Below, one piece after another: positions 1 through 33,926 of a stretch of DNA of 33,926 bases. Position numbers and translations under genes: made by a program. Position 1 is the stretch's first letter, and each line of letters starts with the position of its first letter. Under the pieces are notes generated by a model, which was not told where the DNA came from, ran no database searches, and saw only the letters and a program-made list of their open reading frames with translations. The DNA comes from Bacteroidaceae bacterium (GTDB lineage Bacteria; Bacteroidota; Bacteroidia; Bacteroidales; Bacteroidaceae): contig JAFXQT010000008.1 in the NCBI GenBank assembly GCA_017526905.1, positions 1 through 33,926 of the forward strand. Reading direction: 5' to 3'.

Positions 1-2
1 AT

Positions 3-86
3 ATGAAAGATGAAATATGAAAGATGAAAGATGAAATATGAAAGATGAAATATGAGATATAAAATATGAAATATGAAAGATAGGTT
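3..86. repeat. Heptanucleotide tandem repeat upstream of DUF4837 gene
   Basis: About twelve units of 7 bp, mostly ATGAAAG or ATGAAAT, degenerating to ATGAGAT, ATAAAAT and ATAGGTT at the downstream end. The array ends a few bases before the ATG at 90. A comparable 7-bp array precedes lptE (3658-3699), so the pair looks like the front part of one dispersed repeat type. It may extend beyond the left edge of the window. The unit length is not a multiple of three, but the array lies outside the reading frame, so copy-number change would alter spacing to a promoter rather than the frame. Confidence 0.85.
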
Positions 87-89
87 ACT

Positions 90-180
90 ATGAGCAACAT
101 ATTCAGCAAGTCTAATACATACTTCAAGTTTGAAGCGTCCCCTTGGGCCGAGCGTCGCTCCCTCCCAGGGAGGGCGGGGG
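90..180 (+). repeat. Translated dispersed repeat cassette, copy 1
   Basis: The sequence from the ATG (ATGAGCAACATATT, then GCAAGTCT) to the imperfect inverted repeat CGCTCCCTCCC/GGGAGGGCGGGG resembles positions 3703-3800 upstream of lptE. In both copies the ATG reads MSNIF-KS and the GC-rich part reads RSLP at exactly residues 23-26. The central part differs between copies. The CTCCCTCCC...GGGAGGG end resembles a common Bacteroidales intergenic palindrome; another relative is at 14763-14783. Confidence 0.75.
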
Positions 181-1250
181 GAGGGCCCTTCTCTTCCCTG
201 TTCCTTGTTCCCATGCTTCTTTGCATGTTCCTGTTTGCTTCCTGCAAGAAGGAGTTTGTGATGCCTCGTGCCAGCGGCCGTCCCTACGAAGTGATGGTGG
301 TGATGAGCGATGAGGCGTGGAAGGCCAAGGAGGGACGGGCGCTGTTTGCCGTGCTGGACACCGACATCCCCGGTCTGCCGCAGCCCGAGCGCTCGTTCCA
401 CATCTCGCAGGTGGCGCCCAAGCACTTCGACCATATCCTGAACATCTTCCGCAACGTCATTCTGGTGGACATCAACAAGCAATTGTACACACGCACGAAG
501 ATGAAGTTCTCGCGCGACGTACACTCCATCGGACAGATTGTGCTGACCATTCAGAGTCCGTCGGCCGACGAGTTTGTCGATTACTGCTTTGAGCACGGGC
601 AGGAAATCATCGACTTCCTCACGAAGATGGAGATGAACCGGCTGGTCAAGGAACTGGACGGGAAGTACTCCAAGGTGACGGCTCACCTGGCCAAGGAGAA
701 GTTCAACTGCACGCTGCACGCCCCCGACGAACTGAAGAGCTTCAAGCGCGGCGACAACTTCTTCTGGACATCGAGCAACGGCGCATCAGCCATGGTGAAC
801 ATTGCCATGTACACCTATCCCTACGAGGGGCCGCACACCTTCAACAAACAATACGTGCTGGCCAAGCGCGACTCCGTGATGGCCGCCAACATACCCGGCA
901 CCCTGCCTTCCATGCACATGGCCACCGACACCCTCTGCACCACCTGCAAGCCCATTGTGGTGCACGGCCAGTATGCCTACGAGGCACGCGGCCTGTGGTA
1001 CATGGAGAACGACGGCATGGGCGGTCCCTTCGTGAGCCACTCGCGCGTGGACACCGTGCGCAACCTGGTGGTTGTGGTGGAAGGCTTCGTGTTCGCACCA
1101 GAAAAGATGAAGCGCGGCCTGATGCGACGCATGGAAGGCTCGCTGTACACCCTGAACCTGCCCTACGAAGAAGAGGTGGAGATAAAAACCACGATGGAAG
1201 AGGTGGTAATCACCCCGCAACAGCGGCAGGAAATGCGCGAAAAGCAATAA
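90..1250 (+). CDS. DUF4837 family lipoprotein (copy 1), repeat-derived N-terminus
   Basis: A predicted outer-membrane or periplasmic lipoprotein of unknown function, of the DUF4837 type common in Bacteroidales. From the ATG at 90 it is 386 residues. The lipobox FASC puts the acylated Cys at residue 52, which is far from the start. Residues 1-30 (MSNIF-KS then RRSLPGRAG) come from a dispersed repeat shared with lptE. An alternative ATG at 213 leaves only ten residues before the Cys and no positive charge, so it is a poor signal peptide; the real start is therefore uncertain. The mature part matches the second copy at 26370-27425: LAKRDS followed by NIPG, RGLWYMEN.GMGGPFVS, and VEGFVFAP near the C-terminus. 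It lies 43 bp upstream of pdxA and probably shares its transcript. Family assignment rests on recognition and the internal paralogue; function is unknown. Confidence 0.8.
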   Translation: MSNIFSKSNTYFKFEASPWAERRSLPGRAGGGPFSSLFLVPMLLCMFLFASCKKEFVMPRASGRPYEVMVVMSDEAWKAKEGRALFAVLDTDIPGLPQPERSFHISQVAPKHFDHILNIFRNVILVDINKQLYTRTKMKFSRDVHSIGQIVLTIQSPSADEFVDYCFEHGQEIIDFLTKMEMNRLVKELDGKYSKVTAHLAKEKFNCTLHAPDELKSFKRGDNFFWTSSNGASAMVNIAMYTYPYEGPHTFNKQYVLAKRDSVMAANIPGTLPSMHMATDTLCTTCKPIVVHGQYAYEARGLWYMENDGMGGPFVSHSRVDTVRNLVVVVEGFVFAPEKMKRGLMRRMEGSLYTLNLPYEEEVEIKTTMEEVVITPQQRQEMREKQ

Positions 1251-1281
1251 CCCTAACGATAACGCGAACCCTAACGATAAC
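1249..1281. repeat. Direct repeat of AACCCTAACGATAAC between DUF4837 gene and pdxA
   Basis: Two exact 15-bp copies (1249-1263 and 1267-1281) separated by GCG, at an 18-bp period. They overlap the stop codon of the DUF4837 gene and end shortly before the pdxA start. No known function; the telomere-like appearance is coincidental in a bacterium. Confidence 0.8.
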
Positions 1282-1293
1282 CAAGACACAGAT

Positions 1294-2373
1294 ATGAGTA
1301 AGATAAAGATAGGCATTACCCACGGTGACCCCAACGGCATCGGCTACGAGATAATCCTGAAGACGTTTGCAGACCCCGCCATGCTGGAACTGTGCACCCC
1401 CGTGGTGTATGGCTCGCCCAAGGTGGCTGCCTACCACCGCAAGGCCCTGGACCTGCAAACCAACTACCTCACGGTGAACACGGCTGCCGAAGTGCAGGCC
1501 GACCACCTGAACCTCATACCCTGCACGGCCGAGGAGGTGAAGATAGACTTCGGCAAGGACACGGCCGAGGCCGGACGCGCAGCCCTGGCAGCGCTGGAAC
1601 GCGCCATCATTGACTGGCGTGCCGGTCTGATCGACGTGCTCGTCACGGCCCCCATCAACAAGCACAGCATTCAAAGCGACACCTTCCGCTTTCCCGGCCA
1701 CACGGAGTTCATCCAGGAGCGGGTAGGCGAGGGGCAGCAGGCGCTGATGATACTGATGAACGGACTGCTGCGCGTGGCGTTAGTCACCACGCACATGCCC
1801 ATCAGCAAGGTGGCGGCTGCCGTGACACAGGACACCGTGCTGGAACGCCTGCGTGTGTTCCACACCGCGCTGCGGCGCGACTTCTGCATCTCCAACCCGC
1901 GTATCGCCGTGCTGGCACTGAACCCCCATGCCGGCGACAGTGGCTTGCTGGGCGAGGAGGAGCAGACGGTGATTGCACCCGCCATGAAAGTCGCTGCCGA
2001 GGCAGGCATCGGTTGCTACGGACCCTTTGCTGCCGACGGCTTCTTCGGCACACGCCAGTATGAGCACTACGACGGCGTGCTGGCCATGTACCACGATCAG
2101 GGTCTGGCACCTTTCAAGGCGCTGGCCATGAACGATGGCGTGAACTATACTGCCGGCCTGCCCCTGGTGCGCACCAGCCCAGACCACGGCACCGCATTTG
2201 ACATTGCAGGCAAGGGCGTGGCCGACGAGGCCTCGTTCCGTCAGGCCATCTACACAGCCATCGACGTGTGGCGCAACCGCCAGCACTGGGACGAAGCACA
2301 CGAGAATCCCCTGCCAAAACTCTACCAGGACCGCCGTGAGGACCGCCGCGTGCCGGCGCAGCGCCCTGAATAG
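1294..2373 (+). CDS. pdxA: 4-hydroxythreonine-4-phosphate dehydrogenase PdxA
   Basis: Cytoplasmic metal- and NAD-dependent dehydrogenase of the DXP-dependent pyridoxal 5'-phosphate pathway. It oxidises 4-phosphohydroxy-L-threonine; the product is used with deoxyxylulose phosphate by PdxJ. The 359-residue protein begins with the family motif THGDPNGIG (residues 9-17). It has FPGHTEF near 133, and its three likely metal ligands H167 (TTHMP), H212 (NPHAGDSG) and H267 (MYHDQG) sit one position from the E. coli numbering, followed by TSPDHGTAFDIAG. The C-terminal tail is Arg-rich and not conserved in the family. The gene lies between the DUF4837 lipoprotein and the sigma-54 activator with a short 29-bp gap downstream, suggesting co-transcription. 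No frameshift or missing key residue is seen. Confidence 0.97.
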   Translation: MSKIKIGITHGDPNGIGYEIILKTFADPAMLELCTPVVYGSPKVAAYHRKALDLQTNYLTVNTAAEVQADHLNLIPCTAEEVKIDFGKDTAEAGRAALAALERAIIDWRAGLIDVLVTAPINKHSIQSDTFRFPGHTEFIQERVGEGQQALMILMNGLLRVALVTTHMPISKVAAAVTQDTVLERLRVFHTALRRDFCISNPRIAVLALNPHAGDSGLLGEEEQTVIAPAMKVAAEAGIGCYGPFAADGFFGTRQYEHYDGVLAMYHDQGLAPFKALAMNDGVNYTAGLPLVRTSPDHGTAFDIAGKGVADEASFRQAIYTAIDVWRNRQHWDEAHENPLPKLYQDRREDRRVPAQRPE

Positions 2374-2402
2374 CAGACAGAATTTACTTAAAGAGTCGCG
2401 AG

Positions 2403-3650
2403 ATGGACGCTAAAGAATTGCAAGCCGTTAAGAGTCGCTATGGCATCGTGGGCAACTGCGAAGCCTTGAACCATGCGCTGGATATCGCACTGCAGATGGC
2501 ACGGACGGAGATGTCGGTGCTCATCACGGGCGAGAGCGGCGTGGGCAAGGAGGTGCTGCCGCGCATCATTCATGACCACAGCGTGCGGCGGCAGAAGAAG
2601 TATTTTGCCATCAACTGCGGATCGATTCCCGAAGGAACCATCGACAGCGAGCTGTTCGGCCATGAGAAAGGTGCCTTTACCGGTGCCATAGGCGAGCATG
2701 AAGGCTACTTCGGCGTGGCCAACGGCGGCACCCTCTTCCTGGACGAAGTGGGCGAACTGCCCCTCAGCACCCAGGCACGCCTGCTGCGTGTGCTGGAAAC
2801 GGGCGAATATATCCGCGTGGGCTCCAACCAAGTGCGCCAGACGGACGTGCGCATCGTGGCTGCCACCAACGTGAACTTCCGCACCGCCATCCGCGACGGC
2901 AAGTTCCGCGAGGACCTCTTCTTCCGCCTGGCGGGCACGAACATCAAGATGCCCCCTCTGCGCGAACGCGGCGAGGACATCATCCTGCTGTTCAAGAAGT
3001 TCGCCATGGAGATAGCCCGGAAGTACCAGATGCCCGACTACATCACCCTCTCGCCCGAGGCGGCCGAGGTGATGAAACGCTACAAGTGGCCGGGCAATAT
3101 CCGCCAGCTGAAGAACGTGACCGAACAGATGTCGATACTGCTGCGCGACACACGCGTGGTGACACCCGAGATCCTGTCGGAATACGAGGTGTGGCCCACC
3201 ACTGAGGAGACGGGCATCGCCCTGCGCGAGGCACAGACGTCAGGCACGGGGGCACACAGCTACCAGACCGAGCGGCAGATGCTGTTCCAAATGATCAATG
3301 CCCTGCATCAGGAGATAGCCGAGCTGCGAAAGCAGGTGGAACGCGGCGCTGCCCACCACCATGAAGTGGAGCCTGAGTACACGCCTGTGCATGTGGAGGC
3401 CGTACCGGTGACGCATGCCCCTGTAGCGAACCATGCGCCGTTGCACGAGGCCGTACGTCCGCAAGCCGACGATTTCGCGCAGGCTGAGGAATATGTGGAG
3501 GAATCCCTCTCGATCGACGACCAGGAGAAACGCCTCATTCAGAAGGCCCTGGAGCGCTCGCACGGACGGCGTAAGAAGGCGGCCGAGGAACTGCACATCA
3601 GCGAACGGACTCTCTACCGGAAAATAAAAGAGTACGGGCTGGAAGAGTGA
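2403..3650 (+). CDS. Sigma-54-dependent transcriptional activator (AAA+ and Fis domains, no receiver)
   Basis: Enhancer-binding protein that remodels RNA polymerase holding sigma-54 using ATP. The 415 residues start almost directly with the AAA+ domain: Walker A GESGVGKE at 43-50, the sigma-54 contact loop GAFTGA at 90-95, Walker B GGTLFLDEVGE at 108-118, and the arginine-finger region FREDLFFRL at 168-176. A Fis-type helix-turn-helix fills 372-415 (KKAAEELHISERTLYRKIKEY). There is no N-terminal receiver, GAF or PAS domain, so activity is probably set by a partner protein or by its level. An unusual His-rich linker lies between the two domains (about 315-350). In Bacteroidales this activator is commonly found just upstream of lptE, as here. 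Target promoters are not identified. Confidence 0.93.
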   Translation: MDAKELQAVKSRYGIVGNCEALNHALDIALQMARTEMSVLITGESGVGKEVLPRIIHDHSVRRQKKYFAINCGSIPEGTIDSELFGHEKGAFTGAIGEHEGYFGVANGGTLFLDEVGELPLSTQARLLRVLETGEYIRVGSNQVRQTDVRIVAATNVNFRTAIRDGKFREDLFFRLAGTNIKMPPLRERGEDIILLFKKFAMEIARKYQMPDYITLSPEAAEVMKRYKWPGNIRQLKNVTEQMSILLRDTRVVTPEILSEYEVWPTTEETGIALREAQTSGTGAHSYQTERQMLFQMINALHQEIAELRKQVERGAAHHHEVEPEYTPVHVEAVPVTHAPVANHAPLHEAVRPQADDFAQAEEYVEESLSIDDQEKRLIQKALERSHGRRKKAAEELHISERTLYRKIKEYGLEE

Positions 3651-3657
3651 GGAGGGA

Positions 3658-3699
3658 GATGAAAGATAAAAGATAAAAGATAAGAGATAAGAGATATAA
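3658..3699. repeat. Heptanucleotide tandem repeat upstream of lptE
   Basis: Six units of 7 bp (GATGAAA, GATAAAA twice, GATAAGA twice, GATATAA) run from just after the stop of the sigma-54 activator to the ATG at 3703. Same period and similar content as the array at 3-86, and again directly in front of the MSNIF reading frame. Confidence 0.8.
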
Positions 3700-3702
3700 G
3701 AG

Positions 3703-3800
3703 ATGAGCAACATATTTGGCAAGTCTGCTCGGCCCGAGGGGGCGCTTGCTCCTTCACATCATACATTTCGCTCCCTCCCTTTAGCGAGGGCGGGGAGAGA
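3703..3800 (+). repeat. Translated dispersed repeat cassette, copy 2
   Basis: The second copy of the element at 90-180. ATGAGCAACATATT and GCAAGTCT are shared, followed by a divergent middle and then CGCTCCCTCCC...GAGGGCGGGGAGAG. It is open in the lptE frame and would encode MSNIFGKS ... RSLP--RAG. The distance from ATG to the RSLP codons is identical to copy 1. Confidence 0.75.
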
Positions 3801-4344
3801 GTATGGGGGGAGAGTGTCCTTCTCCTGCTTGCGCCGGGTTGGTAGCGTGGCCTTTCTTTTTGTGCTCGTTGTGTGCTGCCTCATGTCCTGCGCCATCGAG
3901 TACCGTTTCAATGGGGCGAGCATCGACTACACCAAGACAAAGACCATCCAGATAGACCAGTTCCCCATCCGTTCGGCCTATGTGTGGGCGCCCATGCAGG
4001 GCATCTTCAATAACCGCCTCACCGACATCTTCGCCCAACAGACCAAACTGCGGCAGGTGAAGCGCAATGGCGACTTGGTGATTCAGGGCGAGATCACGGG
4101 CTTTGACCAGTTTAATAAAGGTGTGTCGAGTGACGGCTATTCGTCGCAAGTGCAGCTGAAGATGACTGTCAACGTGCGCTTTACCAATACCAAGAATCGG
4201 ACAAAGGACTTTGAAAAGCAATTCTCCGCTACGACGGAATACGATGCAACCCAGCAGCTCATCAATGTGCAGGAACAGCTGGTTACGCAGATGACGAAGG
4301 ATATCACCGACCAGATCTTTAATGCCACCGTGGCCGATTGGTAG
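3703..4344 (+). CDS. lptE: LptE-family LPS-assembly lipoprotein, start uncertain
   Basis: Bacteroidetes LptE-type outer-membrane lipoprotein, expected to plug the LptD barrel that inserts lipopolysaccharide in the outer membrane. From the ATG at 3703 it has 213 residues, with lipobox LMSC and Cys at residue 63; the mature part starts AIEYRFNGASIDY. Sixty-two residues before the Cys is far too long for a normal lipoprotein signal, and the first 31 derive from a dispersed repeat. A GTG at 3814 would give a textbook 26-residue signal (Arg-Arg, hydrophobic core, LMSC), so initiation there is a real alternative. The gene lies between the sigma-54 activator and a TPR-type gene 12 bp downstream, followed by secG, which is the usual Bacteroidales order. 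Function is by family; the start is open. Confidence 0.88.
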   Translation: MSNIFGKSARPEGALAPSHHTFRSLPLARAGREYGGRVSFSCLRRVGSVAFLFVLVVCCLMSCAIEYRFNGASIDYTKTKTIQIDQFPIRSAYVWAPMQGIFNNRLTDIFAQQTKLRQVKRNGDLVIQGEITGFDQFNKGVSSDGYSSQVQLKMTVNVRFTNTKNRTKDFEKQFSATTEYDATQQLINVQEQLVTQMTKDITDQIFNATVADW

Positions 4345-20326: not shown

Positions 20327-20440
20327 TTGTACGTACGTATAAATGGTAGTTGTACGTACGTATAAATGGTAGTTGTACGTACGTATAAATGGTAGTTGTA
20401 CGTACGTATAACTTATGGTTGTACGTACGTATAACTTCTA
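20327..20440. repeat. Five tandem 23-bp repeats with palindromic core TACGTACGTA
   Basis: Units start at 20327, 20350, 20373, 20396 and 20419, each exactly 23 bp apart (the last is 22). The first three are identical; the last two differ in their 3' third (AACTTATGG and AACTTCTA instead of AAATGGTAG). Every unit contains TTGTACGTACGTATAA with the self-complementary core TACGTACGTA. The lack of unique spacers excludes a CRISPR array. Confidence 0.92.
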
Positions 20441-26286: not shown

Positions 26287-26341
26287 GCAAGAAAGCAGAG
26301 AAAAACGTGAGAAAAGGCGAATAAATTTGCGCGGAAATGCT

Positions 26342-33567: not shown

Positions 33568-33628
33568 AAGTACCACCCAGCATGGGCGTGCGCTATAGGT
33601 GCAAGCTACCCCCCCCAGGAAAAGTGAA

Positions 33629-33904
33629 AAACACAAATGTACCTGCGTACCTGCGTACCTGCGTACGTGCGTGCCAGGAAGCCTTTCGCCCCCACGTGCA
33701 AAATGAAAAAACACAAATGTACCTGCGTACGTGCGTTCCAGGAAGCCTTTCGCCCCCCCACGTGCAAAATGAAAAAACACAAATGTACCTGCGTACGTGC
33801 GTACCTGCGTACCTGCGTGCCAGGAAGCCTTTCGCCCCCACGTGCAAATGAAAAACACAAATGTACATGTGTACGTGCGTACAAGCGTACAAGCGTACCT
33901 GCGT
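33629..33904. repeat. Compound minisatellite with 8-bp subrepeats
   Basis: Four units start with ACACAAATGTAC at 33631, 33711, 33777 and 33855. Each holds a variable number of 8-bp subunits (GTACCTGC, GTACGTGC; in the last unit also GTACAAGC). The first three continue with CCAGGAAGCCTTTCGCC, a run of C, CACGTGCAAA and an A-rich stretch. Unit lengths of 80, 66 and 78 bp differ mainly by whole 8-bp subunits. Frames through it encode only repeat peptides (YLRTCVPA or its antisense) and are not genes. The array approaches the right edge of the window. Confidence 0.9.
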
Positions 33905-33926
33905 CAGCTGGCTACCATTGTCTGAT

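Follow-up and report, generated by a model that had tools for sequence, protein, structure and literature searches.

The best-known cases of palindromic repeats within protein genes come from Rickettsia. The available part of PMC2229807 names 19 gene fusions with Rickettsia palindromic elements (RPEs) and describes an RPE-fused guanylate kinase that was made and active, and that of PMC10969869 distinguishes ten RPE families. Repetitive extragenic palindromes (REPs) with a CGTC tag occur in five phyla including Bacteroidetes, apparently without a dedicated transposase (PMC3733652, available part), and the enterobacterial RU-1, RU-2 and RU-3 repeats (ERIC, YPAL) are small, mobile elements that can lie in frame within genes (PMC2759123, available part). 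We analysed a stretch of 33,926 nucleotides from a Bacteroidaceae bacterium (assembly GCA_017526905.1, contig JAFXQT010000008.1, positions 1 to 33,926, forward strand), here called the window, in which two lipoprotein genes, a DUF4837 gene and lptE, carry copies of one palindromic repeat at their starts (Table 1). These copies belong to a REPIN-like (REP doublet forming hairpins) palindrome family of Bacteroidales that is very probably protein-coding at gene starts, where it appears sometimes to bring the start codon. A literature search that included the repeat peptides and DNA returned no paper on this family; most subscription journals lay outside its coverage, and priority is uncertain.

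RPEs are the closest analogue, likened here by description and not by sequence. In both cases palindromes of several families sit in frame within unrelated protein genes and also between genes, with translation predicted from sequence in the present family. RPEs measure 105-146 or about 150 bp in the accessible descriptions, whereas here about 45 nt are conserved and ATG-bearing tandem units lie 80-115 bp apart; unlike RPEs, the present family is from Bacteroidales, is placed N-terminally and has units with an ATG and a 7-bp array. With REPs and REPINs it shares short hairpins, inverted doublets, several families and, as far as the consulted descriptions go, some copies within genes and at NH2 termini. 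Unlike GTAG and CGTC REPs, its tail is mostly AGTC, with CGTC in only 1 of 31 own-genome copies of the A1 type (by eye); copies from named genomes had been selected with AGTC and were excluded from this comparison. One subfamily-B copy (C95:29490) ends GAGCGT. A diverged CGTC REP family is possible, because the two tags are one base apart. A frame and orientation bias at gene starts was measured here, whereas PMC3733652, in its available part, doubts that many terminal REP copies are coding. RU repeats are longer (103-168 bp in the available text) and come from another phylum.

The sequence-only reading had observed that both open reading frames (ORFs) begin MSNIF-KS, have RSLP at residues 23-26 and reach the lipobox Cys only at residue 52 (DUF4837) or 63 (LptE), with a 7-bp array ahead of each ATG. 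All of this was confirmed, and the two genes are unrelated as it had said, belonging to separate Pfam families (DUF4837, E 3.4e-99; LptE, E 5.7e-20). Both share one layout: 7-bp array, ATG, start segment, second short repeat, hairpin, signal peptide. The hairpin arm CTCCCTCCC begins at 158 and 3771, in each gene 68 nt past the ATG. The earlier reading remarked on this constant length, which was rejected as a sign of a single event: the spacers consist of different mosaic parts, those of DUF4837 and LptE carrying related stretches in opposite orientation (by eye), and the equality looks coincidental. The second short repeat, GAAGCGYCCCYTTGGGCCGAGCG, occurs at signal-peptide starts in DUF4837, a SusD-like gene and others (C74:6326 and C77:143 regions).

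Searches of the 2.80-Mb, 79%-complete source assembly ('own genome' below) revealed a dispersed family larger than first described. The segment ATGAGCAACATATT had two exact sites and one 1-mismatch site against none for its reversed control, and CGCTCCCTCCC had 18 matches against 3; inspection of the latter exposed a palindrome common to both window genes, CTCCCTCCC-loop-GGGAGGGCGGGG, which as the pattern CTCCCTCCCN{1,10}GGGAGGGCGGGG gave 27 matches against 0. A covariance model built from 31 own copies gave at least 84 own-genome matches at E<=1 (150 of 565 candidates scored), its source copies, both window copies among them, matching by construction. Two further subfamilies are related to this subfamily A: B (25 matches against 0 in the control) and C (19 against 0, <=1 mismatch). 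The conserved part of subfamily A spans about 45 nt, comprising about 11 nt, a 26-nt hairpin and GGAGAGTC. This was delimited on 205 copies, 27 own and 178 from named genomes, the latter largely fetched with the exact subfamily-A pattern, in which the hairpin and GGAGAGTC are fixed. Flanks of 60 nt on either side were available for 197 of them, and culling those with similar flanks left 158; the conserved stretch extends from about -11 to +8 or +9 relative to the core, whose length is 26 nt in 149 of the 158. By eye, the tail GAGAGTC is present in 25 of 31 own A1 copies, and two upstream forms alternate, near AATACATTCYG and AAGGTAACYG. Between genes as well as within them, there are single copies, inverted doublets that face outward, and tandem units; of the neighbouring pairs within 300 bp, 20 of the 27 own and 48 of the 52 named ones are in minus-plus (outward) order, and none is in plus-minus order.

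The family is confined to one genus in our genome set. With E<=0.001 and stricter filters, the model matched 32 of 81 genomes, all within the genus of the window (32 of 49), and none of the 32 genomes from other genera of the order. Copies per genome within the genus range from zero to at least 66. An exact-pattern scan of named genomes gave at least 114 stretches, 113 of them from Bacteroidaceae, Prevotellaceae, Prevotella or Bacteroidales metagenome-assembled genomes (MAGs); many repeat-bearing MAGs among the matches listed come from ruminants, and one match listed is titled Ruminococcus and may be misbinned.

Host genes are of many unrelated kinds. NCBIfam identified eight of ten own-genome proteins scanned (HisB, Fmt, TrmB, ProA, DinB, FucP, ValS and a LolD-like ABC protein), the two window proteins giving no match, and all ten proteins hand-picked from a set of 71 in named relatives (PyrI, ArgB, PurC, ValS, ArgC, RimO, Ddl, RmlB, IlvN and RibF). 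The copy in DinB matches the model only weakly (14.8 bits, E 0.49) and was set aside as evidence. In HisB, Fmt, FucP and ValS (two species), the family profile begins at residues 23-32, right behind the repeat, with the match starting near the profile's own first positions, as it does in PyrI, ArgB, PurC, ArgC, RimO, Ddl, RmlB, IlvN and RibF; as judged from these profiles, the family domains behind the insert are intact. The LolD-like protein has a longer linker, with the profile from residue 52. Further hosts are ApbE, GH35, a SusD-like protein, glutamate synthase and an ABC-2 permease, and the copies in TrmB, ProA and GH35 are internal to coding DNA. The earlier idea of a copied element between leader and protein thus holds for many unrelated genes and is too narrow for the internal and C-terminal-side copies.

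Subfamily A is biased in both orientation and frame. A codon-usage score trained on 15 window genes was applied to 240 nt starting 15 nt past the core, the repeat itself being unscored; the input was 276 copies (68 own and 208 from named genomes), from which 120 copy-sides passed, forming 97 clusters by protein similarity. With each cluster counted once per category, 76 of 81 counts have the repeat reading toward the gene (raw, 85 of 92) and 63 of 76 have it in the ..APSL.GRAGGES frame (raw, 72 of 85), the other frames having 9 and 4. If counts are independent, binomial probabilities are 8e-19 for frame and 1e-17 for orientation. Against the sole other forward frame that is usually open, the main frame leads by 62 to 8, and among subfamily-A copies with coding DNA on both sides the frames number 17, 2 and 1. 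Because of this bias in downstream codon usage, subfamily A is very probably translated at gene starts, as about 15-25 extra amino acids. We propose that the encoded peptide, usually SAPSLTGRAGGES, acts as a small, polar, Gly/Ser-rich and harmless linker.

Start codons were examined in the start class of the main frame (54 copies), of which 35 had a bounded upstream open run of <=60 codons; these include some orthologues (ValS, TrmB). An in-frame ATG lies upstream in 34 of the 35, the nearest being 9-12 codons before the core in 25, and no ATG, GTG or TTG follows within 15 codons past the core in 24. In HisB, the sole ATG, GTG or TTG between the upstream stop and the catalytic motif FIDRDG is that of the repeat unit, which would supply the start codon if only these three codons are used. 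Tandem units that each hold an ATG and a hairpin precede HisB (C64, 80 and 86 bp apart) and ApbE (C83, 115 bp apart), supporting the view that the ATG is copied along with the unit. A mechanical list of ATG, repeat and then >=100 open codons contains 30 of the 84 model matches, a few of them doubtful (for example, C41:41476 and C26:4189), and period-7 arrays stand immediately 5' of several other own-genome start copies. DUF4837 and lptE fit the start-class layout, and their start codons were probably supplied by the copied unit.

Comparison with relatives revealed filled and empty sites. For DUF4837, 18 of 20 syntenic regions examined had a match: an n-region repeat, B-like by eye, is present in three genomes (G018, G040 and G041) and decayed in G016; of the other 14 loci, by eye, the signal is short and ordinary in ten (for example, MKKSLFLILTATLLLAAC), and in four (L374, L375, L380 and L381) the leader is longer and shows no recognised repeat. 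The DUF4837 paralogue at 26337 in the window lacks such a repeat-bearing start. For lptE, 30 loci were compared, window included, from 56 genomes with a match; in 16, an in-frame open ATG overlaps the 3' end of the upstream sigma-54 activator gene, and in the window this codon is ACG and the frame closed. A separate, different copy lies in the LptE signal peptide of G019 (MRIKHFCNCNLQKHILRSLIGRGWGGSLFFILILTSC). Own-genome TrmB holds three copies, a single one (about 19 extra codons, by eye) and a doublet region (about 50 residues), while in many of the 30 aligned loci there is just a short loop (SVVEDVPFE opposite the single copy), and TrmB of G043 has a subfamily-B copy in the same first loop. 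The ProA copy is also present in G018 and is decaying in G016. A gut genus with such a range of copy numbers, and with both filled and empty sites among its members, makes the entry of this DNA into essential genes directly testable, and the repeat also matters for how gene starts and signal peptides are called in these MAGs.

We consider it highly likely that these observations reflect a non-autonomous palindromic repeat family that has been copied around genomes of this Bacteroidales genus and persists in frame inside genes. The repeat would be copied to many sites between and inside genes, and intragenic copies would persist where their length preserves the frame and the encoded peptide is harmless, namely after the first codons, in signal-peptide n-regions and in protein loops. 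Selection, rather than targeted insertion, would then set the frame, the element would be mobile and its copies would be translated in the cell. At some starts an A-rich 7-bp array and an ATG are part of the copied unit, which would then also supply the start codon. A bolder version, which we regard as possible but doubtful, is a mobile gene-start cartridge in which the 7-bp A-rich array, the ATG and a frame-locked linker of 15-25 codons spread together as one unit and took over from the native starts in many housekeeping genes; if so, initiation signals in the genus would partly belong to a repeat family and not to the genes.

Several observations weigh against copying into gene starts as described. 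Subfamily B has no frame bias (plus-orientation cluster counts 8, 3 and 8): the in-frame insertion suggested by the sequence-only reading stands for subfamily A, where the random frames named there as contrary evidence are not seen, and fails for subfamily B, which shows exactly these. Copies also lie internally, on the C-terminal side and elsewhere, which speaks against the gene-start idea, and in ProA the copy takes the place of roughly the number of residues that it contributes (by eye). The start test left out 19 of the 54 copies, whose upstream run exceeded 60 codons or was unbounded, and a later ATG, GTG or TTG lies within 15 codons in 11 of the 35. A third tandem array (C24) has units without an ATG. 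The portable start foreseen earlier gains from the ATG, sometimes with its A-rich 7-bp array, that often precedes the repeat, and loses from the in-frame start codons that lptE (GTG 3814) and DUF4837 retain downstream of it; because of these, starts downstream of the repeat are possible in the two genes. A start at GTG 3814 would give LptE a plausible signal peptide, while in our judgement the later in-frame ATGs of DUF4837 look poor as starts, as they fall within the hydrophobic core. Orthologous loci bear out filled and empty sites, but the lptE start also moved in L263 and L266 without an evident repeat, so the repeat is not the sole cause of start relocation. Conservation at the named loci is partly imposed, as the search pattern fixed the hairpin and GAGAGTC, and the named and genus collections are not independent, since several contigs agree in length between them and appear to be shared. 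No target-site duplication was obvious by eye in TrmB, the only gene inspected for it, and no Y1_Tnp or RAYT (REP-associated tyrosine transposase) match, the IS200 type also being sought, and no mobilising enzyme was found in the own 79%-complete genome.

Selection for expression control could instead explain the composite of A-rich 7-bp array, ATG, about 10 codons and hairpin, which would then be an adaptive portable initiation cassette and not tolerated selfish DNA. The regions chosen around repeat copies (293,590 bp) contain 53 arrays of period 6-8, mostly 7, and the 17 that lie within 100 bp of a copy favour this view, as do the 9-12-codon spacing from nearest ATG to hairpin in 25 of 35 copies, the tandem units with an ATG that have multiplied ahead of HisB and ApbE, and a leader around the lptE start with no predicted structure (0 kcal/mol). 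We nevertheless think it unlikely, as the other 36 arrays lie away from any copy, some structure is predicted in the DUF4837 leader (-5.5 kcal/mol, z -1.47), internal and C-terminal-side copies exist and presence differs between species. Examples of 7-bp arrays are those in C72 (L114:1551-1620), C28 (L079:4855-5095) and TrmB of G018 (L391). Some fall inside coding DNA, including one in a C72 ORF that we take to be BlaR1-like.

Mobilisation as classical REPINs by a RAYT (Y1) transposase appears improbable. Palindromes in inverted doublets with several subfamilies per genome recall such a system, the available part of PMC6006769 describes Bacteroidetes RAYT subclasses flanked by secondary structures, and Y1 is matched weakly in four high-copy genomes (G003, G042, G043 and G048; E 3.8e-5 to 9.7e-4). 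A Y1 match was found in 22 of 61 genus genomes, 17 above the cut-off, and its presence does not follow copy number. Stronger matches occur in G013, G022, G027, G032 and G035, each with only 3-9 repeat copies (the strongest, in G087, lay outside the copy-number search), and five high-copy genomes (G015, G016, G018, G019 and G040), like the own genome, gave no Y1_Tnp match; their assemblies are incomplete, so this absence is not proof. RAYT and IS200, sought in the own genome and the 61-genome genus set, are improbable mobilisers as far as these assemblies tell: where copy number is known, the stronger matches do not track it, though the four high-copy genomes have weak ones. Separately, weak Y1 matches in several genomes lie in larger ORFs (mostly about 350-510 aa) and may represent a different protein family.

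It is improbable that the N-terminal copies form hairpins in an untranslated 5' region, with a regulatory role or none, while translation begins at a later in-frame codon and the open frame is accidental. Two own ORFs, presumably NqrB and FrdB, have an ordinary-looking ATG downstream of the repeat, as lptE and DUF4837 have in-frame starts, and 11 of the 35 start copies have one within 15 codons. Compared with its shuffles, the LptE copy has the better fold (z -2.14; 3 of 200 equally good), which also speaks for this reading. Special RNA folding was considered and rejected: shuffled sequences do as well as the consensus core (-15.8 kcal/mol, z -0.04), and also as well as the copy in DUF4837 (z -0.43). 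The available part of PMC3733652 judges an extragenic location possible for many of the REPs at NH2 termini in other species. Against this stand the single frame in 63 of 76 cluster counts, the 24 of 35 copies without a later start, HisB with no other start before FIDRDG and the copies internal to TrmB, ProA and GH35. Chance similarity of two unrelated starts, for which nothing was found in favour, has a negligible likelihood, being refuted by the control searches (ATGAGCAACATATT, CGCTCCCTCCC and the palindrome), the model matches and the frame bias.

Table 1. Repeat parts and associated features at the DUF4837 and lptE starts, in window coordinates.
Feature	Position	Strand	Remarks
DUF4837 lipoprotein gene	90..1250	+	ORF; PF16125 at residues 61-354; leader and repeat make up about the first 33 codons
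lptE gene	3703..4344	+	ORF; PF04390 at residues 80-208; in-frame alternative start GTG at 3814
7-bp tandem array (ATATGAA)11, upstream of DUF4837 start	1..78	+	Tandem Repeats Finder
7-bp tandem array (AGATAAA)6.4, upstream of lptE start	3657..3701	+	Tandem Repeats Finder
DUF4837 start segment ATGAGCAACATATTCAGCAAGTCT	90..113	+	22/24 bases identical to lptE counterpart
lptE start segment ATGAGCAACATATTTGGCAAGTCT	3703..3726	+	common to DUF4837 gene
Second short repeat GAAGCGTCCCCTTGGGCCGAGCG, between DUF4837 start segment and hairpin	132..154	+	4 places in own-genome regions examined
lptE stretch resembling the 132-154 repeat, reversed orientation	3727..3748	-	by eye
Palindromic repeat copy in DUF4837	128..189	+	hairpin 158-179, loop shortened; covariance model 44.1 bits, E 3.3e-10
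Palindromic repeat copy in lptE	3745..3805	+	hairpin from 3771; covariance model 46.9 bits, E 4.4e-11
ACG replacing the in-frame open ATG of 16/30 lptE loci	3634..3636	+	overlaps end of upstream sigma-54 activator gene

Elsewhere in the window, positions 20327-20434 hold a 23-bp tandem repeat of 4.7 copies of TTGTACGTACGTATAAATGGTAG, and an array of 66-78-bp units with 8-bp GTACCTGC repeats occupies 33611-33907 at the contig end.

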